DNA of 20,004 nucleotides, from positions 1-20,004 of the IMG/VR virus record IMGVR_UViG_3300013093_000359; one strand, given 5' to 3'. Positions within the stretch are counted from its first letter, which is position 1. Each line of letters starts with the position of its first letter. The notes below the pieces were generated by a model that was given only the letters and a program-made list of their open reading frames with translations, ran no database searches and was not told the DNA's origin. The position numbers were made by a program, and so were the translations under genes. Shown in pieces: positions 14 to 20,004 of the stretch. Source of the DNA: a virus.

Positions 14-391
14 ATGACCATTACATATCGCGGATTTAGTACACTCAACAGCGCAAAGAAATATTCTTTGACTGATTTTGAGCTGGCTCAACAAGACCTA
101 ATCAACTACTTTAGTCTACGCAAAGGACAAAAGTTAATGAATCCCACCTTTGGTACTATTATATGGGACATGCTGTTTGAACCACTAGATGAAGCAACAC
201 AAGAAATAATCACACAAGACATTAAAAAAATAGTTGCGTATGATCCACGCTTGCAAGTTGGTCAAGTGGCTATTACACAAAAAGATACTGGATTTTTAGT
301 ACAGTTAACTTTGTCATACGTTCCTACCAATCAAACATCAACTATTGAGTTAAATTTTAACAAAAATAGTCAAACACTTTCTGCATCTTAA
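14..391 (+). CDS. gp25: gp25-like baseplate wedge protein
   Basis: A 125-aa protein close in length to T4 gp25 (132 aa). It shows the family pattern: RKG at residues 36-38, NPTFGT at 43-48, LFEPLDE at 54-60 and YDPRL at 76-80, then a short beta-rich C-terminus. Proteins of the gp25/lysozyme-like family (also in type VI secretion baseplates) form part of the inner baseplate wedge, where they contact gp6 and sheath-initiating proteins; despite the name they are not active lysozymes. The gp6-like gene follows after 72 bases, the expected neighbour. The ATG at 14 is chosen because the residues just after it align with the family N-terminus and no later start has a ribosome-binding site. It has no room for a Shine-Dalgarno site if transcription starts at the adjacent late promoter, so that transcript would be leaderless. 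Family assignment is firm; the leaderless idea is inference. Confidence 0.9.
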   Translation: MTITYRGFSTLNSAKKYSLTDFELAQQDLINYFSLRKGQKLMNPTFGTIIWDMLFEPLDEATQEIITQDIKKIVAYDPRLQVGQVAITQKDTGFLVQLTLSYVPTNQTSTIELNFNKNSQTLSAS

Positions 392-463: not shown

Positions 464-3400
464 ATGGCACAAACCACACGTCAGACCAGTTTATTAGTTC
501 AGCAAGACTGGACTAAAGTATATCAAGCGTTTACCAACGCTGACTTTACCAGCTACGACTTTGAGACTCTGCGTAACAGCATGATCAACTACATCAAAGT
601 CTATTACCCAGAAACATTCAATGACTTCCTAGAATCCAGTGAATATCTAGCACTCATTGACATGATTGCCTTTTTAGGTCAAAGTCTTGCTTTTCGTACA
701 GACTTAAATGCTCGTGAAAACTTTATTGACACAGCACAGCGTAGAGATAGTATTCTTAAACTGGCACGTATGTTAAGTTACAATCCAAGCCGTACCACAG
801 CGGCTTCGGGATTATTAAAGTTTGACTCAGTTAAAACAACTGAAAGTGTTATTGACAGCGCCGGTATTAATCTGGCTAATGCTACAATACACTGGAACGA
901 TTTGACTAATGATAACTGGTTAGAACAGTTTACTGCGGTTATCAATGCCAGTTTGATTTCTAGTCAAAACATTGGTAAACCCGGCAATAGTCAACAGATT
1001 AACAATATTCAAACTGACGAATATAGTATTGCTATCAATCCAAACTTATTGCCAACTGCACCTTTTACAGTTAACATCCAAGGTAACCCTACTAGCTTTG
1101 AAGCAGTAAGTGGAACTAGCGTCGGTGAAACATATATCTATGAAGATGATCCAACTAAAACAGGTCAGTTCAATATACTTTATCGTAATGACAACAACGG
1201 TAATGGTAGTAACAATACTGGATTCTTTGTTTACTTTAAACAAGGATCGTTATCGGCTACCAAATTTAATATTACCAATGCGATTCCAAACAACTTTGTT
1301 CCTATTAACTCAAACAACATTACCAACACAGACCAATGGTTATATAGTTTAAATGTCAATGGTGGACCGCAAACTAAATGGACACAAGTTCCTGCATTAC
1401 CAGGATCCAATGTTGTGTTTAATAACTTAACTGATAAAAATCTATATCAGATCAATACATTAAATAATGATCAAGTTAGCTTGGTCTTTGGCGACGGATC
1501 GTTTGCTAACATTCCTCAAGGTCAGTTTATATTTTATTATCGTACCAGTAACGGTACAACCTATGCTATCAACCCAAATGATTTAGCTAGTGTAAGTATT
1601 AACTTCAACTATGTAAGTAAAAATAATACACTAGAAAATATGACAGTTATTGCCAGTCTAAAGTATACAGTAACTAACGCCAATGCGGCACCTAGCTTAT
1701 CAAGTATTAAGACAGCGGCACCACAACAATACTACACACAGAATCGTATGGTAACTGGCGAAGATTATAATATCTTCCCAACAACCAAATATACCAGTAT
1801 TCAAAAGGTTAAGGCAATCAATCGTACCAGTAGTGGTGTAAGTTTATACTTAGATGCCATTGATCCTACTGGTAGTTATAGCTCAACAAACATTTTTGCT
1901 GACGATGGTATCTTGACTGCTAACAATACTACTAGCACAACTACATTTAGTTTTTTAACTTCTAACGACATTTATACTGCCATCTACAATCAAGTTATTC
2001 CAGCGATTGACAGTACAGAAATGCGTAACTATTACTATGGAACATATCCACGTTACAGCACTAGTACCGCACTAGGTGGCAATGTGGTATTCTATCAAAC
2101 TAGTAACAGCACATCAACTAGTTCTGGATTCTTGGCCAATGTTATAACTGGTAATACCTTACAAGTTGGTCCTGGAGTTAGCGGTAACCTACAATATGTT
2201 GCACCTGGTGCAAGCCTGCAGTTTACAGCACCTGCTGGTTATTACTTTGATGCACAGCACGTTATTAAATCTGGTACACCTACCTTGGGCACAGACAGTT
2301 TAAACTTTTATGCAACTGTTTCCAGTGTTGTTGCTAATAACAACTTTACTACACCAAGTCAAGTAACATTTGCTACAGTAGTGCCCAATGGTGCTGTTTT
2401 GAGCGATGTTAACTTGTCTGGCGCCAACAGTATTATTCCGCCTTACATGAATGATTTACCATTGACCTTGATTCCGACCATAACTAGTCAGATTAAATCA
2501 AACTTAAACTTTGGTCTAACATATGATCAACTAAATCAAACTTGGATTAATATTCCTCCTTCAAGCATTGGCACAAGTACCAACTGGCTATTAAAGTTTA
2601 CCTACAATGCAGGCCTATATACTATTACATATAAGCAACTAGAATATACATTTGCCAGTGCTGGCACTACTAATTTTTACTTTGATCCAACTGTAAGTGT
2701 TTACGATAGTACCACAGGCTTAACCATTACAGACAGTATCAAAGTTTTAAAAATCAATGACAAGCCTGCACCTAACACTAATGTTCCATTGGGTCAAGAC
2801 ATTATCTGGAAAATTTACAATAGTAAAGTAGAGCCAGACGGTTATGTAGATCAGAATGTTGTATTAATCACCTTCCCAGATACACAGATGCCAGGGGTAC
2901 CGGATAATCCAGAGTTATTCACTGATGTTGCTGGATCTAATTCTAGTCGCAGTGGCTTGTATTTCCAATACAAACACAATGCTCCAGCACGTAGTCGAAT
3001 TGATCCAACACCGGTTAATCTTATTGACTTATATATTTTAGTTGCATCTTATACCAGTGCATACATAGCTTGGTTGCGTGATTTAACTGGCACAGTACAA
3101 GAACCTATGCCGCCAACATCAAGCAGTTTAGAAATTGACTATGCTGGGTTAGATGACTACAAAACAGTTAGTGATACAATCATTTATAATCCTGCACAGT
3201 TTAAACCACTATTTGGCTCTAAAGCAGATCCTAGTCTACAAGCACGTTTCCAAGTAGTTAAGAATCCTAGTGTTGGTATTACTGACAACGAAATCAAAAC
3301 ACAGGTAATCTCAGCGATTAACAATTACTTTGATCCTAATAACTGGGACTTTGGTGATACATTCTACTTTAGTGAATTGGCCGCTTATTTGCACAGCACA

Positions 3401-3595
3401 CTAGCGCCTAATATTAGTAGTGTGGTTATTGTTCCATCAGACAGTAGTTTAGTATTTGGTAACTATTTCCAAGTTAACGCTGAACCATGGGAAATCATTA
3501 CATCGGCTGCAACAGTAAACGATATCGACATTGTGTCCGCAGTAACTGCCGCACAACTAGGTATGAGTGGTATTAACTTTGGTTCTACACAATAA
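464..3595 (+). CDS. gp6: gp6-like baseplate wedge protein, enlarged
   Basis: A 1043-aa protein. The N-terminal 110 residues carry the gp6 signature: an acidic helix (YPETFNDF, 48-55), the segment LIDMIAFLGQSLAFRTD at 64-80, and AQRRDSILKLARMLSY at 91-106. The C-terminus is also gp6-like: ITDNEIKTQVISAINNYF from residue 939, then NNWDFGDTFYFSELA at 959-973. In T4, gp6 dimers form the continuous ring of the baseplate inner rim, clamping gp7 and gp25. T4 gp6 has 660 residues; the extra length here lies in the middle (about 120-870), which is rich in Ser, Thr, Asn and beta-prone stretches and matches nothing I recognise. The ATG at 464 gives the intact conserved N-terminus; the upstream AGG is weak. 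The stop overlaps the next start by one base (TAATG), suggesting translational coupling with the giant gene. The family call is strong; the role of the central insert is unknown. Confidence 0.88.
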   Translation: MAQTTRQTSLLVQQDWTKVYQAFTNADFTSYDFETLRNSMINYIKVYYPETFNDFLESSEYLALIDMIAFLGQSLAFRTDLNARENFIDTAQRRDSILKLARMLSYNPSRTTAASGLLKFDSVKTTESVIDSAGINLANATIHWNDLTNDNWLEQFTAVINASLISSQNIGKPGNSQQINNIQTDEYSIAINPNLLPTAPFTVNIQGNPTSFEAVSGTSVGETYIYEDDPTKTGQFNILYRNDNNGNGSNNTGFFVYFKQGSLSATKFNITNAIPNNFVPINSNNITNTDQWLYSLNVNGGPQTKWTQVPALPGSNVVFNNLTDKNLYQINTLNNDQVSLVFGDGSFANIPQGQFIFYYRTSNGTTYAINPNDLASVSINFNYVSKNNTLENMTVIASLKYTVTNANAAPSLSSIKTAAPQQYYTQNRMVTGEDYNIFPTTKYTSIQKVKAINRTSSGVSLYLDAIDPTGSYSSTNIFADDGILTANNTTSTTTFSFLTSNDIYTAIYNQVIPAIDSTEMRNYYYGTYPRYSTSTALGGNVVFYQTSNSTSTSSGFLANVITGNTLQVGPGVSGNLQYVAPGASLQFTAPAGYYFDAQHVIKSGTPTLGTDSLNFYATVSSVVANNNFTTPSQVTFATVVPNGAVLSDVNLSGANSIIPPYMNDLPLTLIPTITSQIKSNLNFGLTYDQLNQTWINIPPSSIGTSTNWLLKFTYNAGLYTITYKQLEYTFASAGTTNFYFDPTVSVYDSTTGLTITDSIKVLKINDKPAPNTNVPLGQDIIWKIYNSKVEPDGYVDQNVVLITFPDTQMPGVPDNPELFTDVAGSNSSRSGLYFQYKHNAPARSRIDPTPVNLIDLYILVASYTSAYIAWLRDLTGTVQEPMPPTSSSLEIDYAGLDDYKTVSDTIIYNPAQFKPLFGSKADPSLQARFQVVKNPSVGITDNEIKTQVISAINNYFDPNNWDFGDTFYFSELAAYLHSTLAPNISSVVIVPSDSSLVFGNYFQVNAEPWEIITSAATVNDIDIVSAVTAAQLGMSGINFGSTQ

Positions 3596-6500
3596 TGGCA
3601 CTATTAAACACTATTAACTTTTTACCTGAAGCATTTCGCTCAGACACCAACCAACGTTTTCTTGGCGCAACAATGGATCAGTTGTTTACGCCAGGTGTTA
3701 ATCAACCAGTTAATGGATACATTGGTCGTACGTTTGCACCTACATATAAACTAGGCGATAACTATGTACCAGAACAAAATTCAAGCAGAGCTAACTATCA
3801 ACTTGAAGCTGGCGTAGTTGTTACAGATGATAATAAAAATATTACATTTACAGCAGGATATTTAGATTTATTAAACAGTATCAATACAAACTCAGGTCCA
3901 GCTAATAATATAACTGCTAATCATCGGCGATTATTTTCTGCAGAAAGTTATAACTATGATGGTCACTTTGACTATGATAAGTTTGTAAACTATTATAACT
4001 ACTTTTGGTTACCTAACGGTCCAATGTCAGTTAATGTTTCTGTAAACAAAGTTCCATATCAAGCCACTTATGATGTAACACGCAGTACACAAGTAGGCGG
4101 CTATACATTCTCTGGCGTTGGCCCACATCCTAATACACAACTAACACTAGCACGTGGTGGTACATATACATTTAACGTTGATCAACCTGGCTCACAGTTT
4201 TGGATTCAAACTAGTCCTGGTGTTAGTGGTCTTGATCCTAATATTGATACAGTTACTACACGTCAAGTCTATGGCGTAGCCAACAATGGTACCGACAATG
4301 GTACGGTAACATTTAAAGTTCCTTTAGCAACAGCCCAGGACTTTTATTCCAACATGCCTATTGTTACCCCATCTACAGGTAGTACTACGGTAGCAGTTTC
4401 ATTTCACTATACTGATGTACAAAACCAATTGGTCAGCAACTTCCTGACTAAGTTCCCGTCAGGACTTGATGGCATTAACAATCAAAGTTTGTTAACTGGT
4501 ACAACATTTATTTTTATTAATAACGATTTATCTGATGCCGCTTGGACTAATCCGACAGATCCGTTTGCAGTAAAAATGGCCGAAATACAAGCTGCCAATC
4601 CAACAGGATATTTGTCTGACCCCGATTATATTACTGCTAAATCTTTATTGAATTCAACATCGGGCGTAGTTTCTAAAACAAATCGTACAAGTATTTGGAA
4701 AATTAAACTAGTTCCACTTGGCAACGATTATGTAATGCAGTTACTGATTGATACAGTACTCAAGCCTCAGCAAAAAGTTTTCATCACGTCCGGTCAAACT
4801 TATGCTGGTAATCAATTCTGGTTAGATAATAATCAACATTACGAAACAGTTCCAGCAATAACAGCCGGTTTAGATTATCTGTACTACCAGGACAGCAATA
4901 ATCCTGGATTTACAGGACAAATCAAGTTAGTTGATAATTCAACTAGTACTCTTGATATCAATGCTGACATTATTGGTAGTGTTGGATATACTAGTCCCAA
5001 TGGTGTAATTTTTACCAATGGATTAAAAGTTGCATTTGACAGCGATGTAACACCTGCTACTTACGCTAACAACGAATATTATGTTGAAGGGGTGGGAACC
5101 AGTATTAATCTAGTTCCGGTTGCAGATCTGATAGTACCAGAACCGTTTGGTGAAAATATTGAAACTGTTCCTGATTATATCACTATTAATCGTGCGGCAC
5201 AAGATTTAAATCCTTGGACGCGATACAATCGTTGGTTCCACAGAGACGTTATCACAGCCACAGCTGAATACAATAATACTGTAGCTGACTACGGCGACAA
5301 TATTTCTGCACGTCGTAGTATCATTGAGTTTGAACCAAACCTACAACTATTTAACTACGGCCGCCAAGCTACAACTAGTGTATCTTATATTGTAACTGCA
5401 TCAACTGATGCATTTAATGATTTTGAAGGAAAAACAACTGCCGCAATAGATGGGGTTACTCTAGTCAACGGAGACACAGTTATTTTTGCCAATGACTATG
5501 ATACTGCTATTATCAATGAAGTATGGGAAGTCCAATATCAACAGATCATTGACATGCCATATTTGACTCTAAACAAGACAGCGACAGATCCAGTACTGCC
5601 TGGAGAGAATGTACTAGTTACCAAAGGATCTCATGCTGGTTATACATTTGCATTCGATGGCAGCGCATGGTCACAATGTCAACAAAAGACCAATGTTAAT
5701 CAAGCACCACTATTTGATGTTGTTGACAATGATGGATATAGCTTTGGCGATACTACAGTTTATACTGATAGCACGTTTGCTGGAACAAAATTCTTTGGAT
5801 ATGCACAAGGCACAGGCAATAATGATGTAGTATTAGGTTTTCCTTTACAATATCAAAACTTCAATAACATTGGCGATATTGTATTCAGTAACTTCTACGA
5901 TACAGATACATTTACTACTGATGCAGGCACGATCAATGTCAACACCGGATATATTGTTAAAAATACTGATCTAACTGCTACAACCAAGTTAACTAACTGG
6001 GTAACTAATGTTGAACCAACTGAACAGTTCCAGATCTTTACTAGATTCTTTGAAGGTTTTGTCATTGAGTACAAAGGTGCTCAAACAGCATTCGTTCAAA
6101 TCGATGTACTACCAACAGCGGAAACAACTGTACCTCATCTTAAAGTCTATTTAAACAATGCGTTATTAGTAGAAGGTGTTGATTATGTAGTAGACATGAT
6201 TGGTGTGTACTATGCTGTATTGTTTACCACAATGCCAGAGATCAATGACAAGATTGATGTTAAAATCTTTAGTTCAGGCTCAAGTCAAATAGGCTATTAC
6301 GAAATACCTGACAACTTAGATTTAAATCCGTTGAATGAAAACTTTGACACTATTACTCTTGGTCAGATTCGTACACACTACGATAAGCTAATAGAAAATA
6401 CTACAGTTAATTCAACAAACCCAATCCCAACACAGGATAACTATCTTAAAAAGCAAGGCGGAACACTACGTCAGCATTCTGCTCCATTAGTATATGCACT

Positions 6501-9500
6501 ATCATTTTTAAATGATCCAGATTTTAGTTTTGTTGATGGCATTACGTTAGCCAAAAAAGAATACACTAAGTTTAAACACAAGTTCTTAAGCCTGTGCAAC
6601 AAATCATCTGATATTGACTACAATAATCCGGCTGCCGGAGTAGATGCAATACTACAAAGTATTAATGTATTAAAGAACAGTAGCTTCCCTTGGTACTATA
6701 GTGATATGGTTCCACAAGGCAGTAGTTATAACGAAATTGTCTATACAGTTCTTAATGCTCGTCAGACTAACTATGAAATCAATTCTTTATTTGACAACAC
6801 AGTTTTAAGTAATCGTGCCATACTAGTATACGTCAACAGTCAACAACAGATACTTGGAGTTGATTATACATTTAGTACTGTTAGTCCAACTTTAATCTTT
6901 AATAATGAGTTCACAGCCGAGGATGTAGCAAATGGTACAAAGATTACCATTAGAGATTATGCCAATACTGATGGTAATTACATTCCAGAAACTCCAACTA
7001 AGTTGGGACTGTACCCAAAGTTTACTCCATTGATGTATGTGGATAACACATATCAAACTCCTACAACAGTTATTCGCGGACATGACGGTAGTATAACTCC
7101 AGCATTTGGCGACTTCCGTGACGATTATCTATTAGAGTTAGAGCTCCGTATATACAATAATATCAAAGCAGATTACAGTAAGAATGTTATTGATTTATAT
7201 GATACCATACCGGGACGTTTCAGAACTGGCGATTACAGTCTAACTGAATTTAATCAAGTACTCGAACAAAACTTTTTAACTTGGGTTGGTACTAACAACG
7301 TTGATTATACAACAAACAATTTTTATGATGTTAACAACCCATGGACATGGAACTATGGATCCTTCCCTGATGTAATAGATGGTTCTAGTTTACAAGGGTC
7401 TTGGCGTGCCATTTATAACTATTGGTTTGATACAGATACTCCAAATCTAACACCTTGGGAAATGCTAGGCTTTGCCAGTGAACCAAGTTGGTGGGCAAGC
7501 CGTTATGGTGTTGGTCCTTATACTGATGGTAATACCCTATTATGGGAAGACTTGTCTAATGGCTATATCTGGAACAATGGCGCACCGTACTACGACACAC
7601 GTTTTGCACGTCCTGGATTAACAGGTTTTATTCCAGTTGACTCTGCCGGCAATCTAATAGATCCTACACAGATTCCTTTAATCAAAACTTATGTTTCTTC
7701 GACAGCTAGCAATGCATTTTTAGCAGGGCAACAAAGTCCTGCAGAAGTAGCATGGCGTCGCAGTAGTGACTATCCTTATGCTGTACAGATGACGTTGGCA
7801 TTACTACGTCCAGCACAGTATTTTGCTACACAACTAGATACAAGTCGCTTTTCTAATAGCCCACAGACTGGACAGTTCTCTAACTCATCTAATAGAAAGA
7901 TTTCACCAAGTCTATTGACTGTTAACGGTAACACCAACAGTACAACTGGTGCCATTGATCGTACAAGTGGATATATCAACTGGGTTGGTGATAGCATTAA
8001 GAATCTTGGCATAGATCCGGTATCAACATTGATTGATTATTTTTCAAACTTGTCTGTTCGTTTGAACTATAAAGTCGCAGGCTTCACTGATAAAAATTTA
8101 ATAACAGTAAGTGCTGAACAAACAAGCCCTGGTAGTACAAGCGGTAGCATTATTATTCCGGATACTAACTATCAAGTTTATTTAAATAAATCAGTGCCAA
8201 TCGGCTCGGCCGTATATAGTGCAGTCATCGTTGAAAAAACTTCAACCGGCTGGAGTGTAACTGGGTATGATCCAACTAATCCATTTTTTAACATTGTACC
8301 AAGTGTTGCTGATTCAAACGCACAAAACTTAACTGTTAACGGCACAACAATCAAACTTTACCAATCTAGTTCTAATACTGTTAGCGTAGTTCCTTACGGA
8401 ACTGTTTATTCTAGTATTCAGCAAGTAGCAGACTTTATATTAAGCTATCAAAGATACTTAAACAATGTTGGTTTCCGTTTTGAAACTTTTAATACCGACT
8501 TACAGGCACAGCAAGATTGGTTATTAAGCATACAAGAACTATTATACTGGAGTCAACAAGGATGGAATACTACTTCAGTTATTGTGTTAAATCCTGTGGC
8601 AACTAGCTTAGAGTTAGCAGTAGCGGGAGCGATTGTCGACGAAGTTACTAATACTTCAAATGGTAGCAAAATATTAGATCAGAATTTTGCACCTATTAAG
8701 AGTAATAACTTTAATATTGTAAGAACTAATAGTGCGGTCAATGGAAATAAGTTTACAATATCTACACTAAATGGATCTACAATTTGTTATGCAAAGTTAA
8801 ATCTAACTTCATATGAACATGTTTTAGTCTTTGATAACGTAGATGACTTTGGAGATATTATCTATGTTCCTGATACTGGTACACGCCAATATCGTTTAAA
8901 AATAGCAGGAAGTAAGACCGGTGCATGGGACGGTTCATTAAGTGCGGCAGGCTATATCTATAGCGATCCTATCATTGATCCTTGGCAACCTGGCACTGAC
9001 TATCAACTTGGTGATATTGTTCAATACAATAACTTTTATTATACAGCCACACAAAATATTTCAGCAAGTGTTGATTTCAATCCAGTGCTTTGGACACAAA
9101 TTTCATATGATAGTATACAAACTGGATTGTTGCCTAGCTTTAGTTTAAATGCACAAGAGTTTACTAACTTCTACGACGTAGATAATCCTCCTACAGACGA
9201 AACATTCCAAAAATATAGTGCAGGCTTACTTGGCTTCCGTCAACGCAGTTACCTAACAGATTTAGGCATCAGTATTCCAACTCAGACTAAGTTTTATCAA
9301 GGTTACATTAAGCAAAAAGGCACAATGGAGGCCATAACAGCATTAACCAAAGCTAACTTTAATAACGTAAACGGTAATGTTAATGTTTATGAAGAATGGG
9401 CATTTAATGTTGGCAAGTACGGTAATCTAAATAACAACATTTACAAAGATTTTATCTTAGATCAAAGTGTATTCAAAACTAATCCAGTGGTATTTACATC

Positions 9501-12500
9501 CGATGGTGTTTACAATGCTGGTAATATCATTGTTAGTTTAAATGGTAACGCATTAAGCTCTAATTCTAATGTTTACACATCTAGCAATACTTTTGTCGGT
9601 ACTACTACACTTTATAACAATCGTACAGATTTAGTTTATATAACCGATTTACCTGATGTTGGCTATATGAATATCAATGATGTTGACTATACATTATTTG
9701 ATATTACAAAACCCAATTCACTGAATGTTGCTACCCTTGGTGGTGGCGATAAAGTTTGGGTAGCCAAAGATATCAATGGTAACTGGGATATTTTAAGAAC
9801 AAATGAATCTAATATTATAGCTGAATCATTGACATTTATTCTTGATTCAAATGCTCAGTTATTGTTTAACACTACACACAAGTTTAGTGTAGGCGATATA
9901 TTTGTATTAAAAGATTTTAATCCTACATTTGACGGAGTGTATGAAGTTGTTAGTGCTCCTACACCTACATCGGTTGTTATACAGATTAACAACATACAGC
10001 CTAACATTAACACAATCAGTCCACTACAAACATTGATTCGCGCATTGGTAATCACAGGATCTGGCATTGTATATACTCTTGATAGTGCTAGAATTGGATC
10101 GCTTGGTGCGTTCCCTACACACCCTGTGCCTATTAATGGTTGGCTGGATGGCGATCGCATTTGGGTTGATAATGCTAGTACCGCAGGCTGGGGTGTTTAC
10201 ACATTTAATCATCCTTGGTTGGCAAATACTGCTGTTCGTGTAACAGGTAATACTACTGCCAATGGTCGCTTTGGATCTACAATACGAGTTAGTGCCGATA
10301 ATACATTTGTATTTGCAGGAAGCCCTGCTAGCCGTCAGGTATTTGCTGAACCAGTTAAGTCAGGATCAACCGTTACTATTTCTGTAGCCGACTCGGGATT
10401 TGGTCAGTCAATAGACAGTCAAGGTAACTTATTAACTGTAGCAAGTACATCTAATGTTTATCTATATCGTCAAAATGGTAACGTAATCACAGCATTACAA
10501 ACTATTATCAGTGGAAACTTAACAGGAAATGTAACTAGCATTTCAATGAGTGCCGACCAAACTTGGTTGTACATTGGTGGTAACAATGCAGTACACGCTT
10601 ACACAGCAAATACTACGCCTAGCTCGGCTAATGTTAGTTATGTATGGGCTGGAAAGATTACTGGCACAGGTTCTTTTGGTAATGTGATTCGCACAAACAA
10701 CAATGGTACTACATTATTTGTTGGCGCACCGACTGCAAACAATATATATTCTCAAAACGGAAATGTATATGTTTACTCACGTTCAGGCAACACATTAACC
10801 AACACACAAACACTATCTAGTCAGCATAAAAATCAAAGTGCAGGATTTGGCACAAGCATCAGTATTGATGCAACAGCTGGAAACGTCTATATTGGTGTGC
10901 CTGGATCAACTGTTACTGGATTCTTAAATGGCGCAGTAGAACGTTATGTATTGACCGGTGGATCATACGTGTACAATCAAACACTTAACCAGCCTGAAAC
11001 TAATACCGGTGCATTTGGTACTAGTGTTAGTATTAGTGGAAACGGTCAAGTGCTAGCTATTGGAAGTGTTGGATCAGCCGTTGAAGAACATACAACTTTT
11101 GATAATACTGCAACAACCATTGACACCAATACTACACACTTTGTAGAATATATTTCTAACAGTGGTGCAACTTACCTATTTGAACCTGTAGGCGGTGCTT
11201 ATGTTTATACACAACAACTAGAAGCACAGTTATACTCCAATGATTTATATGGTACAGCAGTTGATGCTACCAACGGTACTATTGCAGTTGGGGCGCCTGG
11301 TACTTTAAACAATTATGGCGCTGGATATGTCTTTGCTAATCCTACTCAAACACGTGCATGGATTCAAACACGTACACAGATGCCTATAGTTGACACCGAC
11401 AGTATTAGTCGTACTTTTGTTTATAACAAAACTAACAATAACTTATTAGCGGCATTAGACTATATTGATCCTGCTAAAGGAAAAATCTTAAATGCATTTG
11501 GCCAGGATATTGATTTCCAACGTGCAACAGATCCTGCGTTATATAATGCAGGTAACAATGTTGTTAACAAAACATTACATTGGGGACCCAATCAAGTTGG
11601 AACAATCTGGTGGGATCTAAGTACAGTTCGATACATTAACTACGAACAAGATGCATTGATTTATCGCTTGAACCATTGGGGAGAAACATTCCCCGGGTCA
11701 AGCATTGATGTATACCAATGGATAGCAAGCAGTCAGCTACCTAGCGAATATACTGGTAGTGGCACACCGATGCATCCTGATAACTCTGCTTACAGTACCT
11801 ATGGATATGTAACACCCACTGGTGCTATTAATCTAACCTATTACTATTGGGTTAAAAATATCCAATCGGTTGATAAAGCTAAACAAAATAGTGTTTATAG
11901 TATTGCCGAAGCTATTAAAAATCCACAGAGTCAAGGTATTCCGTATATTAACGTACTACGTAACGATACAGTGGCAGCTTATAATATAAACAATCTATTA
12001 GTTGGACAAAGTAGTGTTATTGAACTTGGCACATTAAATGTTAATGCTACAGAAACAGCATTAGTACACAGTGAATATGCATTAGTACAAGAAGGTAATC
12101 CTCGTAGTCAGCTACCGACGCTGATTGTTGATAAAATCAATGACAGTATTTCTGGTATTGATGCGGTTGGTAACCCGGTACCAGATCCTGCACTACCACC
12201 TAGCCAAGCATACGGTATTAGTATTCGCCCAAGACAATCGGCTATCATTGACGTTAATACGGCTTTATATAATATTGTTACTTTAGTTAATTCAAAGTTA
12301 ATAGCGTATCCAGTAACCGAACGTAAGGTATTGACTACTCTTAATAGCAGTGAATTATATCCTGTTGCTGGATCTGGGTATTACTCTATTTCTGTTAATA
12401 TAGTTGATGAGCTCGAATACATCGATACCAACACTATATCTACAGGATATCAAGTGCTAGTCTTAAGTGACACTAATAATTTAGGCAAATGGGCAATATA

Positions 12501-14577
12501 TCGCTGGACTGGTACTGCATGGACTGTAGCAACCAGACCCGATGGAACTACACCTTGGGTTCAGCTATATAAGACTAATCTGTATTGGTCATACGCTGAC
12601 TGGTATGCAGAAGGATTTGACCCAACTACTACTATTGATGTAGTGGTTGCAAATAACTTAGAACTTGGTAAACTAACCTTACAGGCTGGCACATACGTTG
12701 AGGTAGCAGATGACGGCAATGGTAACTTTGTAATTTATTACATCAACAAAGATTTATCTAAGACTACGGTTGGCATACAAAACGGAACTATACAGTTACC
12801 GGGCGCAGAAACAAATATTCCAGACCGCGAGCTACGTCAAATATTAGTTGCACTACACAAAGAAATCTTTATTGATGACCTGGCTGCAGAATACAACGAA
12901 ATTTTCTTCACTATGATTAAGTACATCCTGTCAGAGCAGAAAAATGTTGACTGGGTATTTAAAACTAGTTTTGTTAGCGCCACACAAAGTATTCGTAAGT
13001 TACAACAGTTCCCAAGTTATATTCCAGATAATCAAAACTTCTATTTGGACTATATCGATGAAGTTAAACCGTACCGCACAGTGGTTCGTGAGTTCGTGGT
13101 CGACTATTTAGGCAATGATGAATATGGAAGTGACATCACTGACTTTGACTTGCCTCCATATTGGGACACCAATCTAAAAGTATATCGTAGTCCGAGTGGC
13201 GAGCAAAGTTATGATGCTAATACATTAAGTACTACAAATAGTGTTTACAGTCAGTGGTATAATAGTTACAAGTATCAAGTAGTTAACGCCATTATTGATA
13301 ATCCTGGATCGGGTTATTTAACTGCACCGCAGGTGGTTATCACCGGTGATCAAGGCAGCGGTGCCACAGCCTACGCGGTATTAGGCAACAACGGCGCTGT
13401 TAGTCAGATTGTTATTACTAACTCTGGTAGCGGTTACACAACCATACCAGAAATCATCATCAATGGTACAGGATCGGGTGCAAAAGCTCGGGCAGTATTG
13501 AAAAACTTATTTAACGGTAACAATGCTGGACACAATCTTGTACGCAGTTTAGGCATGACATTAACTTATGATCGTGTAACTTATGCAAACGTTACCTATC
13601 CTGGTGTTATTGTTGATGGCGGTAACTTACGAACTTACGCAGATGGAACAGTTACATTTGGATCTCCAGCAAGTAATGTAGCCGGCGGATTTGATGCTAC
13701 TATATCAAGTAGTTATACTAGTAGTCTTGGTGTAAACCCTGCAGATATCATTGTAGATGGCGGCGCTTATGTTGGGCCATTTAGTAGTTATGCTCCAGAG
13801 GAGTTAGTTCCTGGACGTATGTTTGACAGCTTGAACATGCAAGTATTTTCAAATGTTAATCCAGGTACGAACGATTACGCTTTCCGTATCTTTACTGATA
13901 TGAATCAAGCAACTACATTCTATCGCATTGCGGCGGCAAATACAACCACATTGGCCAGCAACTTACACATTACCGACAGTAACATTTATGTAGTTAATAG
14001 TTCAGTATTACCTATACCAAATCCTACACTAGCTATCCCTGGTGTAGTATTCATTGGCGGAGAGAAGATCACTTACTATACCAATGATACTGTAAACAAT
14101 GTACTAGGACAAATACGTCGTGCAGTTGATGGAACCGGCGTTGGCAGAGTGTTAGATTGGGTACCAAAATTAAATATTGCCACCGGATCGTTAATATCTT
14201 TTGGTAGTAATAGCTATATAACAACAGGCAATGTTTATGGTGTTAGCTGGACCGATACATCTGTACAAGCTAACGTCACATATTATGGAAGTGCATATAT
14301 ACACTCGGCAGGTACTCGTGTTGTTGATGCTAGTTTAGATCAAGTGGTTCCCTTAACTAGTCAAACTACAGCTAACGTAGGTGCCGCTAATGTAACCTAC
14401 ACAAATACAGCAGGAAATACTATTACAGTATTAGCTAATACCGTTGTATACAAGGATCTAGCCAACTGGTATGATACTGATACTGCAAACAGCCGTCCAA
14501 GTTTTGGTAACGGACTGATCAATAGTACTACAGTACAAGCCAAGTTCCTATTAGCAAGTCCAGGATATACACCATGA
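3595..14577 (+). CDS. giant virion protein, probably a gp7-like baseplate wedge or fibre-docking protein
   Basis: An uninterrupted 3660-aa protein. It begins with NTINFLPEAFRSDTN (residues 5-19), and FDYDKFVNYYNYFWLPNG at 125-142. These, plus LTPWEMLGF (1285-1293) and NVDWVFKTSF...DYIDEVKPY (3117-3160), resemble large structural proteins encoded after gp6 in marine T4-like phages. Modules seen by eye: a beta-sandwich-like segment at 185-258 with a cupredoxin-like pattern but no metal ligands; a chitin-binding-like module at 1796-1836; seven FG-GAP-like repeats at 2225-2580; paired GSGY repeats at 3231-3302; and a GVVFIGGEKITYY motif near 3483. No signal peptide or membrane segment is evident. 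T4 gp7 (1032 aa) sits at this place in the gene order, so a wedge role is inferred from position, not from recognised gp7 sequence. The start at 3595 overlaps the gp6 stop and has no Shine-Dalgarno site, so translation is probably coupled. The stop TGA overlaps the next ATG and a late promoter. Alternative: a side fibre or baseplate-decoration protein. Confidence 0.75.
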   Translation: MALLNTINFLPEAFRSDTNQRFLGATMDQLFTPGVNQPVNGYIGRTFAPTYKLGDNYVPEQNSSRANYQLEAGVVVTDDNKNITFTAGYLDLLNSINTNSGPANNITANHRRLFSAESYNYDGHFDYDKFVNYYNYFWLPNGPMSVNVSVNKVPYQATYDVTRSTQVGGYTFSGVGPHPNTQLTLARGGTYTFNVDQPGSQFWIQTSPGVSGLDPNIDTVTTRQVYGVANNGTDNGTVTFKVPLATAQDFYSNMPIVTPSTGSTTVAVSFHYTDVQNQLVSNFLTKFPSGLDGINNQSLLTGTTFIFINNDLSDAAWTNPTDPFAVKMAEIQAANPTGYLSDPDYITAKSLLNSTSGVVSKTNRTSIWKIKLVPLGNDYVMQLLIDTVLKPQQKVFITSGQTYAGNQFWLDNNQHYETVPAITAGLDYLYYQDSNNPGFTGQIKLVDNSTSTLDINADIIGSVGYTSPNGVIFTNGLKVAFDSDVTPATYANNEYYVEGVGTSINLVPVADLIVPEPFGENIETVPDYITINRAAQDLNPWTRYNRWFHRDVITATAEYNNTVADYGDNISARRSIIEFEPNLQLFNYGRQATTSVSYIVTASTDAFNDFEGKTTAAIDGVTLVNGDTVIFANDYDTAIINEVWEVQYQQIIDMPYLTLNKTATDPVLPGENVLVTKGSHAGYTFAFDGSAWSQCQQKTNVNQAPLFDVVDNDGYSFGDTTVYTDSTFAGTKFFGYAQGTGNNDVVLGFPLQYQNFNNIGDIVFSNFYDTDTFTTDAGTINVNTGYIVKNTDLTATTKLTNWVTNVEPTEQFQIFTRFFEGFVIEYKGAQTAFVQIDVLPTAETTVPHLKVYLNNALLVEGVDYVVDMIGVYYAVLFTTMPEINDKIDVKIFSSGSSQIGYYEIPDNLDLNPLNENFDTITLGQIRTHYDKLIENTTVNSTNPIPTQDNYLKKQGGTLRQHSAPLVYALSFLNDPDFSFVDGITLAKKEYTKFKHKFLSLCNKSSDIDYNNPAAGVDAILQSINVLKNSSFPWYYSDMVPQGSSYNEIVYTVLNARQTNYEINSLFDNTVLSNRAILVYVNSQQQILGVDYTFSTVSPTLIFNNEFTAEDVANGTKITIRDYANTDGNYIPETPTKLGLYPKFTPLMYVDNTYQTPTTVIRGHDGSITPAFGDFRDDYLLELELRIYNNIKADYSKNVIDLYDTIPGRFRTGDYSLTEFNQVLEQNFLTWVGTNNVDYTTNNFYDVNNPWTWNYGSFPDVIDGSSLQGSWRAIYNYWFDTDTPNLTPWEMLGFASEPSWWASRYGVGPYTDGNTLLWEDLSNGYIWNNGAPYYDTRFARPGLTGFIPVDSAGNLIDPTQIPLIKTYVSSTASNAFLAGQQSPAEVAWRRSSDYPYAVQMTLALLRPAQYFATQLDTSRFSNSPQTGQFSNSSNRKISPSLLTVNGNTNSTTGAIDRTSGYINWVGDSIKNLGIDPVSTLIDYFSNLSVRLNYKVAGFTDKNLITVSAEQTSPGSTSGSIIIPDTNYQVYLNKSVPIGSAVYSAVIVEKTSTGWSVTGYDPTNPFFNIVPSVADSNAQNLTVNGTTIKLYQSSSNTVSVVPYGTVYSSIQQVADFILSYQRYLNNVGFRFETFNTDLQAQQDWLLSIQELLYWSQQGWNTTSVIVLNPVATSLELAVAGAIVDEVTNTSNGSKILDQNFAPIKSNNFNIVRTNSAVNGNKFTISTLNGSTICYAKLNLTSYEHVLVFDNVDDFGDIIYVPDTGTRQYRLKIAGSKTGAWDGSLSAAGYIYSDPIIDPWQPGTDYQLGDIVQYNNFYYTATQNISASVDFNPVLWTQISYDSIQTGLLPSFSLNAQEFTNFYDVDNPPTDETFQKYSAGLLGFRQRSYLTDLGISIPTQTKFYQGYIKQKGTMEAITALTKANFNNVNGNVNVYEEWAFNVGKYGNLNNNIYKDFILDQSVFKTNPVVFTSDGVYNAGNIIVSLNGNALSSNSNVYTSSNTFVGTTTLYNNRTDLVYITDLPDVGYMNINDVDYTLFDITKPNSLNVATLGGGDKVWVAKDINGNWDILRTNESNIIAESLTFILDSNAQLLFNTTHKFSVGDIFVLKDFNPTFDGVYEVVSAPTPTSVVIQINNIQPNINTISPLQTLIRALVITGSGIVYTLDSARIGSLGAFPTHPVPINGWLDGDRIWVDNASTAGWGVYTFNHPWLANTAVRVTGNTTANGRFGSTIRVSADNTFVFAGSPASRQVFAEPVKSGSTVTISVADSGFGQSIDSQGNLLTVASTSNVYLYRQNGNVITALQTIISGNLTGNVTSISMSADQTWLYIGGNNAVHAYTANTTPSSANVSYVWAGKITGTGSFGNVIRTNNNGTTLFVGAPTANNIYSQNGNVYVYSRSGNTLTNTQTLSSQHKNQSAGFGTSISIDATAGNVYIGVPGSTVTGFLNGAVERYVLTGGSYVYNQTLNQPETNTGAFGTSVSISGNGQVLAIGSVGSAVEEHTTFDNTATTIDTNTTHFVEYISNSGATYLFEPVGGAYVYTQQLEAQLYSNDLYGTAVDATNGTIAVGAPGTLNNYGAGYVFANPTQTRAWIQTRTQMPIVDTDSISRTFVYNKTNNNLLAALDYIDPAKGKILNAFGQDIDFQRATDPALYNAGNNVVNKTLHWGPNQVGTIWWDLSTVRYINYEQDALIYRLNHWGETFPGSSIDVYQWIASSQLPSEYTGSGTPMHPDNSAYSTYGYVTPTGAINLTYYYWVKNIQSVDKAKQNSVYSIAEAIKNPQSQGIPYINVLRNDTVAAYNINNLLVGQSSVIELGTLNVNATETALVHSEYALVQEGNPRSQLPTLIVDKINDSISGIDAVGNPVPDPALPPSQAYGISIRPRQSAIIDVNTALYNIVTLVNSKLIAYPVTERKVLTTLNSSELYPVAGSGYYSISVNIVDELEYIDTNTISTGYQVLVLSDTNNLGKWAIYRWTGTAWTVATRPDGTTPWVQLYKTNLYWSYADWYAEGFDPTTTIDVVVANNLELGKLTLQAGTYVEVADDGNGNFVIYYINKDLSKTTVGIQNGTIQLPGAETNIPDRELRQILVALHKEIFIDDLAAEYNEIFFTMIKYILSEQKNVDWVFKTSFVSATQSIRKLQQFPSYIPDNQNFYLDYIDEVKPYRTVVREFVVDYLGNDEYGSDITDFDLPPYWDTNLKVYRSPSGEQSYDANTLSTTNSVYSQWYNSYKYQVVNAIIDNPGSGYLTAPQVVITGDQGSGATAYAVLGNNGAVSQIVITNSGSGYTTIPEIIINGTGSGAKARAVLKNLFNGNNAGHNLVRSLGMTLTYDRVTYANVTYPGVIVDGGNLRTYADGTVTFGSPASNVAGGFDATISSSYTSSLGVNPADIIVDGGAYVGPFSSYAPEELVPGRMFDSLNMQVFSNVNPGTNDYAFRIFTDMNQATTFYRIAAANTTTLASNLHITDSNIYVVNSSVLPIPNPTLAIPGVVFIGGEKITYYTNDTVNNVLGQIRRAVDGTGVGRVLDWVPKLNIATGSLISFGSNSYITTGNVYGVSWTDTSVQANVTYYGSAYIHSAGTRVVDASLDQVVPLTSQTTANVGAANVTYTNTAGNTITVLANTVVYKDLANWYDTDTANSRPSFGNGLINSTTVQAKFLLASPGYTP
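8980..9102 (+). other. Chitin-binding-like (CBM5/12, ChtBD3 type) module within the giant protein
   Basis: Residues 1796-1836 of the giant protein follow the ChtBD3 pattern: PWQPGTDYQLGDIVQYNNFY, then an alternating stretch, ending in PVLWTQI. The family hallmark is W-x-x-G-x-x-Y-x-x-G-D-x-V-x-Y-x-x-x-x-Y followed some 15-20 residues later by W, and every one of these positions is present. In bacterial chitinases such modules bind chitin or related polysaccharides through exposed aromatics; in phages they occur in tail proteins. Whether it binds sugar here or only serves as a small structural domain cannot be told from the sequence. Confidence 0.65.
10267..11334 (+). repeat. Seven FG-GAP-like repeats, predicted seven-bladed beta-propeller, within the giant protein
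   Basis: Seven imperfect repeats at roughly residues 2225, 2268, 2311, 2361, 2416, 2473 and 2550 share the pattern (G/S/A)-F-G-x-S/T-hydrophobic-S-x-(D/N)-G-N-hydrophobic-hydrophobic-x-(V/I)-G-(A/V/S)-P. Examples are RFGSTIRVSADNTFVFAGSP, SFGNVIRTNNNGTTLFVGAP, GFGTSISI and AFGTSVSISGNGQVLAIGS. Repeat 3 (GNVTSISMSADQTWLYIGG) lacks the FG. This is the FG-GAP/integrin-alpha pattern, and seven copies is the number that closes a propeller of that family. The blades are 43 to 77 residues apart, the widest spacing being before the last. The fold is inferred from repeat pattern and count. Confidence 0.7.
13285..13500 (+). repeat. Tandem GSGY protein repeats near the C-terminus of the giant protein
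   Basis: Two tandem units, at about residues 3231-3262 and 3269-3302, share the order: NPGSGYLTAPQVVITG / NSGSGYTTIPEIIINGTGSG, then GSGATAYAVL / GSGAKARAVL. The linker GAVSQIVI belongs to the first unit. Similar GSGY-x-x-x-P repeats occur in phage and marine bacterial surface proteins, usually as small beta-rich units. The two DNA copies have diverged, so this is an old duplication and not a recent one. Confidence 0.6.
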
Positions 14578-15266: not shown

Positions 15267-16832
15267 ATGACATACCCTATTAACAAGACTGACGGAACAG
15301 CACTAGTAACTCCAACAATGCCATCGGGTGTGTTACAGGATGGCACCCTTGATACTACTACTGGTGTAACCCTAATCGGACGTAACTATCCTAACTACGG
15401 CGAAATACAAAATGAAAACTTTATCAAGTTATTACAAAACTTTGCCAATAGTCAGCCACCGAGTGTAAGTCAAAATGCACTATTATTGTTACCTGGTACA
15501 CTATGGTACAATACCGCTACTAATGTATTAAATGTTTATAATGGTACAAACTTTATTCCCACAAGTCAACGCATTGTTGCCAACACAGCCCCAACGGCTA
15601 CTAGCATTGGAGACCAATGGTACGACAGCGTTAATCAACAACTACGTTCTTGGACTGGTACTCAATGGCAACTAGTTGGACCTGCTTATACCGCCAGCCA
15701 AGGTAAGAGTGGTGCATTTGTTGAGTCAGTTACTGACACAACTGGGAATACTCATATAGTTGTTGCTGAATATGTCAGCAATACAGCAGTATCAGTGACC
15801 AGCATTGACCCAGTATTTACAGTAAACTCTGCTATCTCTACAGCCTACACTGGATTTACAACAGTACAGCCTGGTGTAAACTTATCCACAACATCAATAT
15901 TAAACGGCACAGCAACTAATAGTAATACAGTTGGCGGTCTAAGCCCAACAGTATTTGCACGTAATGATATTGCTACTAGCTTTGCTAGCGATGTTGCAGT
16001 TGCAGGCAATCTAGCATTTAGTAGTGCAAACATTTCTACAACAAATGGTTCTTTGATACTACAAAATAAAAACGTTGGTGGTAACGTAGAACTATTTGTA
16101 AATACAACCAATAGCGGAAATATTCGTAGCATGTCAGTTGACGGTGCTACCGGATTAGCCTATGTATACGGTAATCCAGTAAATCCGTTGGGCATTGCAA
16201 CCAAGGGATATGCTGATGCCATTGGCACTTCTGCCAGTTCTGCACTAGCTTCGGCTGTTGGACAAATCAACTCTAACGTCAATGGTGTGCGTATTGACTA
16301 CATAGGTAACATTAGTTCTGTTATTACATCAACTAATGCAAACTTAGCGGCAGTACAGTCAAGTACTAATGCTAACATTACTGCCGCCAATGCGGCCATT
16401 GTAGAGGCCAATGTGGCAATGAATGCTCATGTTAGTGAACAGATTTCTGCAGTTAACACAGCACTAAGCGCAGGTATAGCAGCCGCTGAAACAATGTCTA
16501 ACTTAGCAGTTGCAAGTTTGAATACTACATTAAGTTCTACTATTGGAAATCTACAAAGTTATATCAACACAACTATTAATCCAGAACTTGTAACACTTGC
16601 TGGTAACGTAGTTCAGTTAACTTCAGCATTGATACCTTTAGCAAATATAGATAGCCCAGCATTTACAGGAGCACCTACTGCTCCTACTCCACCTTCAGGA
16701 GATAACACTGGAAATGTTGCTACAACAGCATTTATTCAAAGCGCAATTAACTCACAAAAGTTTAACTATACAGTTTCTAGTAATCCACCAAGTGGCGGGA
16801 ATAACGGCGACTTCTGGTTCCAGGTAGGATAA
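15267..16832 (+). CDS. Tail fibre protein (fibre A)
   Basis: A 521-aa fibre protein. The N-terminal ~200 residues are homologous by eye to those of the fibre at 18220: both share a YxIxKxDGT opening, an NENxxxLLxNFA motif (here residues 49-60), a GxLWYxT-type motif (76-82), and a Y-T-x-x-Q-G-x-S-G-A segment after the GDQWYDS motif. Next come LNGTATNSNTVGGLSPTVFA (about 212-231) and PLGIATKGYADAIG (near 305-320), both common in trimeric phage fibres. Residues 320-460 are Ala/Asn/Ser-rich with heptad-like character, a probable helical coiled-coil shaft. A tail-fibre motif, SPAFTGAPTAPTPPSGDN then VATTAFIQSAI, spans 463-495. The end, SSNPPSGGNNGDFWFQVG, is short, so no own receptor-binding tip is seen; the adjacent glycine-rich protein may supply it. 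The ATG at 15267 has only a weak upstream site (ACGGA, 9 bases away). It lies 6 bases after the previous gene and has no promoter of its own. Confidence 0.82.
   Translation: MTYPINKTDGTALVTPTMPSGVLQDGTLDTTTGVTLIGRNYPNYGEIQNENFIKLLQNFANSQPPSVSQNALLLLPGTLWYNTATNVLNVYNGTNFIPTSQRIVANTAPTATSIGDQWYDSVNQQLRSWTGTQWQLVGPAYTASQGKSGAFVESVTDTTGNTHIVVAEYVSNTAVSVTSIDPVFTVNSAISTAYTGFTTVQPGVNLSTTSILNGTATNSNTVGGLSPTVFARNDIATSFASDVAVAGNLAFSSANISTTNGSLILQNKNVGGNVELFVNTTNSGNIRSMSVDGATGLAYVYGNPVNPLGIATKGYADAIGTSASSALASAVGQINSNVNGVRIDYIGNISSVITSTNANLAAVQSSTNANITAANAAIVEANVAMNAHVSEQISAVNTALSAGIAAAETMSNLAVASLNTTLSSTIGNLQSYINTTINPELVTLAGNVVQLTSALIPLANIDSPAFTGAPTAPTPPSGDNTGNVATTAFIQSAINSQKFNYTVSSNPPSGGNNGDFWFQVG
16826..16829 (+). 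promoter_or_regulatory. Ribosome-binding site of the glycine-rich adhesin gene
   Basis: AGGTAGGA at 16822-16829 ends 6 bases before the ATG at 16836. It lies within the last codons of fibre A, whose stop is only three bases before this start, so the two genes are likely translated in tandem from one transcript. Confidence 0.6.
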
Positions 16833-18219: not shown

Positions 18220-20004
18220 ATGGCATATACAATAACAAAAAGTGACGGAACAACATTAGCTACAATCTCTGATGGTACCGTAAACACTACAGCAACAAAC
18301 TTAAGTTTACCCGGACCACTTTATGTAGGATATGGGCAAGCTCTCAACGAAAACTTAGTATATCTACTAGAAAACTTTGCTAGTAATTCAGCCCCATTGG
18401 GTACAAATATTCAAGGTCAGCTTTGGTTTGACAAAGCACATCAAACATTAAACGTCTTTACTAGTACTGGATACAGTCCAGTATCGGGTGTTACAGTTGG
18501 AAGTAGTTTTCCTGTTACGCAAAAAGATGGAGATATTTTCTTTAACACTAGTACTAATCAACTTTATATTTCCAGTGCTGGTACATTTGACCTAATAGGA
18601 CCCTTATATACAAAATTACAAGGCACAAGTGGTGCTATTCCAACAACTGTAAACGATGGCAGTATTGGTGGAGTAACGCATAACATAGTTCAGCTACAGT
18701 TTGGTAATACGGTTATTGCTACATTTAGTACTGACAATCCATTTTTACCAAGTCCGCCTATTCCTGGTTTTACTTATATCAACCCAGGTATTACTTTAAA
18801 TGGATCTTTAGCTGGTGCTTCTCTTAATTCTAATGTTGTTGGTACATTAACCGGTACAGTTACTGGTAATGTTGCTGGTAACTTAACAGGTAATGTTGTT
18901 GGTAATGTAGTAGGTAATGTTGCTGGTAACTTAACAGGTAATGTTGTTGGTACTAGTTTAACTGGAACACTAACCGGCAACTTTTTATCTACAAACGGCA
19001 CAGTCACTAACTTAACTTCTGGTAATGTAAACTTAACTGGCGGTAGTATAACTGGATTAACTAACTTAGCATCAACAAATGCAACAGTAACTAACTTTAA
19101 TGCCACCACATCAAACTTAACTAATCTAAGTGTTGCAAATCTTGTAGTAGCCGGAGGAACATTATCAGGATTAACAGCATTAACCGTAACTAATCTAACA
19201 TCAACAAACTTTACAGTTGCTAATGCTCAGATTGCTAGTGGTAGTGCAACTGGCCTAACAACGGTTGCCGGAACAAATGGTACATTTACAAACTTTAGTT
19301 CTAGCAACATATATGTCACTGGCGGTAGTTTAAGCGGCATTGGAGGATTTACTGCACAATCAACACAAACTACAAATCTTGCCACTGGCAACGCCTTAAT
19401 CACTGGCGGTAGCGCAACTGGATTATCGGCAGTTACTGCAACAGCCGGACAGGTAACCAATCTAACAACAGCAAATATTATAGCCACTGGCGGTAATGTA
19501 TCTAACACAGTTGGTGTAAACAATACATTAACTGGTGCAAACTTAATAAATTCTACAGCAACAACTAAATCTTATAGTGATAGTAGTACAGCTATAGCAA
19601 CTACAGCATACGTTAACTCAGTATTACCACGTGGTGCTATCATTATGTGGGGCGGCATTGTAGCAAGTATACCCGCAGGATGGCAACTATGCGACGGCAG
19701 TAACGGAACACCAAACCTACAAGGTCAATTCATTGTTGGCGCTTCTGGTAGTGGTGGCTACACAGTTGGTGCAACTGGCGGTACTAGTTCGGTTACTTTA
19801 ACCGGCAATAACTTACCAGTACACTCACACGCAATATCAGTATCTGGTACAACCGATGGTGGTGGAGCACATAATCACACCGTCGTTGATAATGGACACG
19901 TACATTACTCATACGGTTCTGGTGCATTCAATGGCGGTGGAGATGGCGGCGCATACGGACAAAATGGTACAGGATATGGCGCTCGAGCACTACAATCAGC
20001 AGTA
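18220..20004 (+). CDS. Tail fibre protein with collar-domain tip (fibre B), partial at the right edge
   Basis: An open frame of 595 codons from the ATG at 18220 with no stop before the window ends. Residues 1-195 are a paralogous copy of the fibre A N-terminus: MAYTITKSDGTTLATI, NENLVYLLENFA (43-54), GQLWFD (66-71), and YTKLQGTSGA (130-139). Residues 208-255 are a GNV/GNL/TGT four-residue repeat. Residues 274-427 are a six-copy shaft repeat with a mostly 28-residue period. STAIATTAYVNSV (456-468) matches the ATTAF motif of fibre A. From 471 comes a phage tail-collar domain: GAIIMWGG, PAGWQLCDGS, TPNLQGQFIVGA. After it stand three HxH motifs: HSH (535-537), HNH (551-553) and HVH (560-562). In T4 gp12 and gp37, HxH motifs bind metal ions along the fibre axis, so this is likely a metal-bound trimeric tip. 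It could be the short tail fibre (gp12-like) or a second long fibre. The start has AGGTAG 11 bases upstream. Confidence 0.85.
   Translation, partial: MAYTITKSDGTTLATISDGTVNTTATNLSLPGPLYVGYGQALNENLVYLLENFASNSAPLGTNIQGQLWFDKAHQTLNVFTSTGYSPVSGVTVGSSFPVTQKDGDIFFNTSTNQLYISSAGTFDLIGPLYTKLQGTSGAIPTTVNDGSIGGVTHNIVQLQFGNTVIATFSTDNPFLPSPPIPGFTYINPGITLNGSLAGASLNSNVVGTLTGTVTGNVAGNLTGNVVGNVVGNVAGNLTGNVVGTSLTGTLTGNFLSTNGTVTNLTSGNVNLTGGSITGLTNLASTNATVTNFNATTSNLTNLSVANLVVAGGTLSGLTALTVTNLTSTNFTVANAQIASGSATGLTTVAGTNGTFTNFSSSNIYVTGGSLSGIGGFTAQSTQTTNLATGNALITGGSATGLSAVTATAGQVTNLTTANIIATGGNVSNTVGVNNTLTGANLINSTATTKSYSDSSTAIATTAYVNSVLPRGAIIMWGGIVASIPAGWQLCDGSNGTPNLQGQFIVGASGSGGYTVGATGGTSSVTLTGNNLPVHSHAISVSGTTDGGGAHNHTVVDNGHVHYSYGSGAFNGGGDGGAYGQNGTGYGARALQSAV
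18841..18984 (+). repeat. Four-residue (12-base) GNV-type tandem repeat in fibre B
   Basis: Residues 208-255 are built from units such as TGNV, AGNL, VGNV and TGT(V/L). At DNA level the unit is GGTAATGTTGCT-like, 12 bases. A 40-base stretch starting at 18865 recurs identically at 18913, a period of 48 bases (16 residues). The identity is high enough to suggest recent expansion or ongoing slippage. All copies keep the reading frame. Confidence 0.8.
19039..19500 (+). repeat. 28-residue shaft repeat in fibre B
   Basis: GGS/GGT-type motifs (GGSITGL, GGTLSGL, SGSATGL, GGSLSGI, GGSATGL, GGNV) begin at residues 274, 312, 340, 368, 396 and 424. The last five are exactly 28 residues apart and the first interval is 38. 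Each unit continues with a T/N-rich strand ending in TNL or TNF before the next turn. This looks like a triple-beta-helix-type fibre shaft. The DNA copies have diverged, unlike the 12-base repeat just upstream. Confidence 0.7.

Follow-up and report, generated by a model that had tools for sequence, protein, structure and literature searches.

FG-GAP propellers and the giant virion proteins of jumbo phages are already known, as are YHYH domains fused to phage tail or baseplate proteins, for which a role as tail-associated Zn-dependent hydrolases has been predicted (PMC7824862). A baseplate propeller is known as well, in the receptor-binding protein of staphylococcal phage 80alpha, whose five-bladed propeller is suggested to bind the GlcNAc of wall teichoic acid (PMC7048315). 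The window analysed here is the 20,004-base IMG/VR virus record IMGVR_UViG_3300013093_000359, from an uncultivated jumbo phage, and encodes a giant protein in which a propeller is predicted at the turn of a single beta-hairpin. A literature search of incomplete coverage returned no report of an FG-GAP propeller in phage baseplates or in this giant protein, nor of a single hairpin that holds nothing, a propeller or a YHYH domain depending on the relative.

The giant protein and its gene neighbourhood

The genes of the window are arranged in the order gp25-like, gp6-like, giant protein, conserved 228-aa protein and fibre-like proteins (Table 1). The giant protein matches phrog_10938 'virion structural protein' at 1016.7 bits, with its best stretch at residues 882-1794, and is assigned to this family on the homology of its conserved core. 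Blocks that can be aligned by blastp with PA5oct, SCTP-2, Atu_ph07, GAP32 and Vibrio 2.275.O cover most of its length, and the upstream core is common to all five. Homologues likewise follow gp6 in jumbo phages, PA5oct, Atu_ph07 and GAP32 among them, and the record of the PA5oct homologue, gp355, is marked ESI-MS/MS, denoting detection by mass spectrometry. The giant protein comes from the jumbo-phage family of PA5oct and RaK2, and a baseplate position is suggested from the gp25-gp6-giant synteny only. Its relative gene position after gp6 matches that of the T4 baseplate wedge protein gp7, but profile similarity to gp7 is not detectable (hhalign with a profile of 10 sequences, probability 0.1%, E 0.5), and homology between the two is rejected. 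An hmmsearch of the PDB with a whole-protein profile gave nothing significant (best 0.05); the whole-protein alignment runs to 8,241 columns and is very gappy.

Other segments of the window also vary among relatives or recall known modules. About 300 residues near the N-terminus (window 4015-4959, residues about 141-455) are reduced to about 15 in PA5oct and constitute another large insertion, to which Pfam gives no confident assignment. A CBM5/12-like module at window 8983-9081 (residues 1797-1829) scores 23.8 bits, just under the Pfam cut-off of 26.2, and a homologue of the PA5oct group carries the annotation 'chitin-binding type-3 domain-containing protein'. Glycine-rich GSGYxxxP repeats at window 13234-13491 (residues 3214-3299) match phrog_460 'head closure Hc2' and occur several times in the Atu_ph07 giant; a mobile repeat that is shared is the probable explanation, not a neck-protein relationship. 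The fibre-like proteins at window 15267-16832 and 18220-20004 have similar N-terminal stretches (xYxIxKxDGTxL...YG...NENxxxLLxNFAS), as if they used a common attachment adaptor.

Table 1. Features of the window, with residue numbers of the giant protein and the basis of each assignment.
Feature	Residues	Window coordinates	Strand	Basis
gp25-like baseplate wedge protein		14..391	+	PF04965 E=7.1e-9
gp6-like baseplate wedge protein		464..3595	+	phrog_10646 E=7.9e-278, phrog_219
Giant virion-type protein, 3,660 aa		3595..14577	+	ORF; directly 3' of gp25-like and gp6-like genes
Upstream conserved core	about 882-2060	6238..9774	+	blastp blocks, phrog_10938
Slot hairpin, first half, RIWVDNASTAGWGVYTF	2188-2204	10156..10206	+	AF2 context strands 204-211, 214-220
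Predicted seven-bladed FG-GAP_2-type beta-propeller	2229-2594	10279..11376	+	AF2, Foldseek, PF14312
Blade 1	2229-2263	10279..10383	+	AF2 strands
Blade 2, degenerate motif	2272-2305	10408..10509	+	AF2 strands
Blade 3, without FG	2313-2356	10531..10662	+	AF2 strands
Blade 4	2364-2407	10684..10815	+	AF2 strands
Blade 5	2422-2465	10858..10989	+	AF2 strands
Blade 6, long B-C loop	2473-2541	11011..11217	+	AF2 strands
Blade 6 long B-C loop, ...TTFDNTATTIDTNTT...	2493-2523	11071..11163	+	conservation, motif count, pLDDT
Blade 7	2555-2594	11257..11376	+	AF2 strands
Slot hairpin, second strand, AWIQTRTQM	2588-2596	11356..11382	+	conservation, allele comparison
Downstream conserved core	2600-2905	11392..12309	+	query for relatives census
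Conserved downstream protein, 228 aa		14574..15260	+	phrog_11259; in relatives with and without propeller

A predicted seven-bladed propeller

The initial annotation had described seven FG-GAP-like repeats in the giant protein at residues 2225-2580, possibly forming a seven-bladed propeller (by the ORF coordinates, window position 10267 is residue 2225). AlphaFold2 (AF2) modelling of the block from an alignment of 35 sequences agrees with this, predicting seven four-stranded ABCD blades (pLDDT 82.8, pTM 0.82), and a second model spanning residues 1985-2720 (736 aa, 47 sequences) reproduces the propeller with a pLDDT of 81.4 and a pTM of 0.81; the antiparallel four-stranded blades of an FG-GAP_2 propeller are seen in both. 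The propeller runs slightly past the annotated 3' end, the last D strand ending at residue 2594, about 14 residues further on. Foldseek searches of the PDB with the block model match integrin alpha-X (E=4.5e-11) and closed seven-bladed WD40 propellers such as that of PRPF19 (TM 0.76 normalised to the target, 392 columns); integrin and WD40 propellers are matched again with the context model, over about 390 columns, and viral FG-GAP proteins are among the top matches in BFVD. We have very little doubt about the propeller as the predicted fold, and the full-length matches to closed seven-bladed propellers suggest that the ring is closed.

The strict FG...GxP-type pattern is present in five of the seven blades (1, 4, 5, 6 and 7), the motif being degenerate in blade 2 (FGQSIDSQGNLLTVAS) and in blade 3, which has no FG (VTSISMSADQTWLYIGG); an FG-type motif can be read in all seven blades of one relative, L033. 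Five strict motifs in the 501-aa block compare with a mean of 0.34 after shuffling, and none of 5,000 shuffles reaches five. The FG-GAP_2 profile (PF14312) matches the excised block with 29.6 bits (E=7.9e-7) against a cut-off of 23, scores 17.7 bits, under that cut-off, when scanned in the whole 3,660 aa, and matches all 11 members of a close alignment (best 1.2e-16). The FG-GAP relationship first noted thus holds for FG-GAP_2 but not for PF01839 itself, the integrin alpha FG-GAP profile, which has no match in the window record and matches only 3 of the 11 relatives in the close alignment, weakly (best 0.0037). Fold prediction and an FG-GAP profile match were the two points on which the initial annotation could have failed, and both turned out in favour of the propeller. 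A phmmer search of PDB sequences with the block found no match, a profile search of the PDB gave weak WD40 and integrin matches (best 4e-4), and a DNA-level search of phages with the propeller block found none.

Neither a DxDxDG calcium loop nor the relaxed pattern [DN]x[DN]x[DN]Gxx[DE] occurs anywhere in the 3,660 aa. The absence of the integrin-type loop, remarked on in the initial annotation, therefore extends to the entire protein, and the accompanying proposal of a metal-free module stands as regards this classical loop.

The propeller occupies a hairpin turn

A single conserved beta-hairpin, WxVY ... WxxxRxQ, has its turn interrupted by the propeller. The first half of the hairpin comprises two strands, the second of which (WGVYTF) leads into the insert, and the motif is kept in relatives with an empty site; the second hairpin strand, in which W2589 and R2593 are conserved, is found in empty, propeller and YHYH alleles. 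Where the empty allele L067 reads GWAVYTYNGSTWTRTRQQSPSVDI, the window reads GWGVYTFN-propeller-AWIQTRTQMPIVDT, a junction that is exact among close environmental relatives. In the empty alleles L051, L054, L067, L069, L079 and L100, as in cultured PA5oct, 20-22 residues separate the first strand from the second. The spacing is about 320 residues where a YHYH domain is present, about 400-420 in most alleles with a plain propeller, and 638-886 in most of the decorated alleles in which the motif was located. This spacing and the matched junction together argue that the propeller occupies the hairpin turn and that the second strand becomes the D strand of blade 7, whose WIQTRT is equivalent to strand two of an empty hairpin.

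The blocks shared with most cultured homologues end near residues 2025-2107 and restart near 2580-2593. Between them lie from 51 (GAP32) to 413 (SCTP-2) residues, and more than 1,000 in Atu_ph07, with no recognisable counterpart of the propeller in any of the cultured homologues examined. The initial annotation asked whether the block is inserted when compared with homologous giant proteins; the empty hairpins of relatives bear this out, and it is highly likely that the hairpin is an insertion slot and that the core can be encoded with or without an insert.

Two cultured giants have long stretches in this region that are largely unassigned by Pfam, one of 408 aa in SCTP-2 (L012:10929-12152), lying outside the hairpin turn, and one of 1,437 aa in Atu_ph07 (L013:10185-14495). 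A LamG-type domain in the SCTP-2 slot was considered and rejected, as the insert is upstream of an intact hairpin and has no Pfam match.

Distribution and history of the insert

Relatives were collected with the downstream core as query, and the best 80 of at least 585 were taken, so that the census is biased to close kin. Both anchors are present in 72 of the best 80, among which 65 have the propeller, five an empty hairpin and two a YHYH domain; the propeller is thus found in about 90% of this sample. In the two exceptional relatives (L106 and L119) the YHYH domain (PF14240, 4.1e-31 and 4.4e-31) lies between the identical two hairpin strands, while many more distant relatives (e.g. L033, L035 and L042) have enlarged propellers with extra segments in the blade loops. 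A host lookup among bacterial and archaeal genomes found no relative.

A tree of the downstream core with 94 rows needs five changes between propeller and no propeller, a rough count since the bootstraps have not fully settled. The empty alleles sit within a 40-row clade (support 100/100) whose other members all bear the propeller. Because the cultured outgroups are without a propeller, the simplest history suggested by the tree has the insert acquired once, on the branch leading to the environmental clade, then lost repeatedly and replaced a single time. Mean pairwise identity is 0.395 in the propeller versus 0.604 in the adjacent downstream core, and each of the 637 pairs shows the lower value in the propeller. 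The segment directly preceding the propeller is equally variable (0.405), and faster change is therefore not unique to the propeller.

The empty-hairpin relatives retain the downstream 228-aa protein, at 82-88% identity, together with homologues of the fibre-like genes. A partner gene co-varying with the propeller was sought downstream; no co-variation was seen, and the idea that the propeller is accompanied by such a gene is rejected.

Conserved and variable loops

The B-C and D-A loops are the usual ligand face of propellers. Hypervariable ligand-face loops are not supported here, as these two classes are no more variable than the rest, and it is the C-D loops that are least conserved. In blade 6, three residues of the long B-C loop, D2503, D2510 and T2514, are invariant among 35 sequences, and a strict pattern detects a TTFD-type motif in 66 of the 85 distinct propellers, for the most part 104-124 residues ahead of the core. 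In both AF2 models, confidence within the propeller is lowest in this loop, which falls partly below a pLDDT of 50, and we consider it a promising place for a ligand, metal or partner to bind.

Sinorhizobium phage Phosso encodes a separate very long protein of about 3,690 aa, annotated as hypothetical (L014:1007-9056; record 57900-68978), with about 49 FG-type motifs in its first 2,683 aa and apparently consisting of a string of many FG-GAP propellers. A TTFD-type motif was sought in this protein and is absent.

Possible functions of the propeller

Beside what has been computed, namely the predicted fold, the slot, its presence and absence, the YHYH replacement and a greater divergence than in the downstream core, we infer exposure, ligand binding and a baseplate position for the propeller. 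A seven-bladed propeller without the metal loop, looped out from the hairpin turn of a giant virion protein, would most likely be displayed outside, on the tail tip or the baseplate rim, where it would bind a host-surface ligand (glycan or protein); its gain, loss, enlargement or swap would retune adsorption with no rebuilding of the baseplate. Taken as a whole, the explanation as a display slot whose surface-binding module can be exchanged is one that we hold to be reasonably probable, and the chances of the surface-binding role itself are a little better than even.

The initial annotation had offered receptor contact and fibre docking as alternatives. Receptor contact is plausible and is favoured by the presence/absence pattern and the replacement, whereas docking becomes less likely because propeller-less phages retain equivalent downstream genes. 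More generally, display and host-ligand binding are favoured since the core tolerates absence of the propeller, a YHYH domain can be swapped in and the fibre genes are kept on loss, and the propeller gives the impression of a surface-contact module that can be exchanged, not of a core machine part. A constitutive structural role is also compatible with the finding that about 90% of the sampled relatives have the propeller. Beta-propellers often serve as protein-docking platforms, and a platform for a tail fibre or a neighbouring baseplate subunit, rather than for host contact, would suit both a gene directly upstream of fibre-like genes and an invariant, poorly modelled TTFD loop that could become ordered by a partner. 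We nevertheless think such docking unlikely, given that the 228-aa protein and the fibre-like homologues persist beside empty hairpins and that an unrelated YHYH domain fills the slot in two relatives.

If the slot favoured enzymes, as the predicted Zn-dependent hydrolase activity of the replacing YHYH domain might indicate (PMC7824862), the propeller could act on a capsule or cell-wall polymer at the tail tip, and its two invariant aspartates lie within one loop; however, no enzyme propeller family is above cut-off for the window block, the top structural matches are binding propellers (integrin, WD40) and the YHYH activity is itself only a prediction, so that we regard an enzymatic module as improbable. 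We give as little credence to a lineage-specific filler, inserted at a tolerant loop and retained without selected function. In its favour, the core tolerates absence, and a single hairpin is where gains, losses and swaps concentrate; against it, sequences sharing only about 30% identity in the block can be aligned over the entire propeller, most sampled relatives retain the propeller and one of its loops is nearly invariant.

Returning to the exchangeable surface-binding module, we tentatively suggest, at somewhat under an even chance, that the hairpin turn is a dedicated cargo slot that takes entire folded domains for host contact, be it a plain or decorated seven-bladed propeller or a YHYH domain, or nothing, and that exchange of the cargo changes adsorption. 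Discussions of phage host range usually centre on tail fibres and tailspikes, and such a slot in a large clade of uncultivated jumbo phages, if real, would represent a change of adsorption distinct from fibre-tip exchange. Natural alleles of a core-region giant protein either contain or lack an entire integrin-like propeller, with the junction at identical residues, and an abundant environmental jumbo-phage group thus provides a clean natural presence/absence comparison for the role of a baseplate-region propeller.

Comparison with known systems

The predicted propeller shares seven blades with that of integrin alpha, and its best PDB fold match is integrin alpha-X, but it lacks the DxDxDG loops, is unmatched by PF01839 and is 16% identical in the structural alignment. 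The repeat consensus of FG-GAP_2 (PF14312) is common to the block and all of its close relatives; the block differs in being inserted in a giant phage virion protein, in its degenerate blades 2 and 3, and in the long TTFD loop of blade 6, which is absent from the one other FG-GAP phage protein checked. With the giant virion proteins of the PA5oct/RaK2/GAP32 type (phrog_10938) it has in common the gene order after gp6 and alignable core blocks, whereas no cultured homologue examined has the propeller and PA5oct has an intact 20-residue hairpin in its place. The YHYH domain (PF14240), a predicted Zn hydrolase, fills the same hairpin slot in L106 and L119 and is unrelated to the repeat propeller of the window. 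The 80alpha receptor-binding protein carries its propeller on the baseplate periphery, resembling the display that we propose, but that propeller has five blades and belongs to a separate trimeric receptor-binding protein, whereas the propeller of the window lies inside a wedge-region giant.
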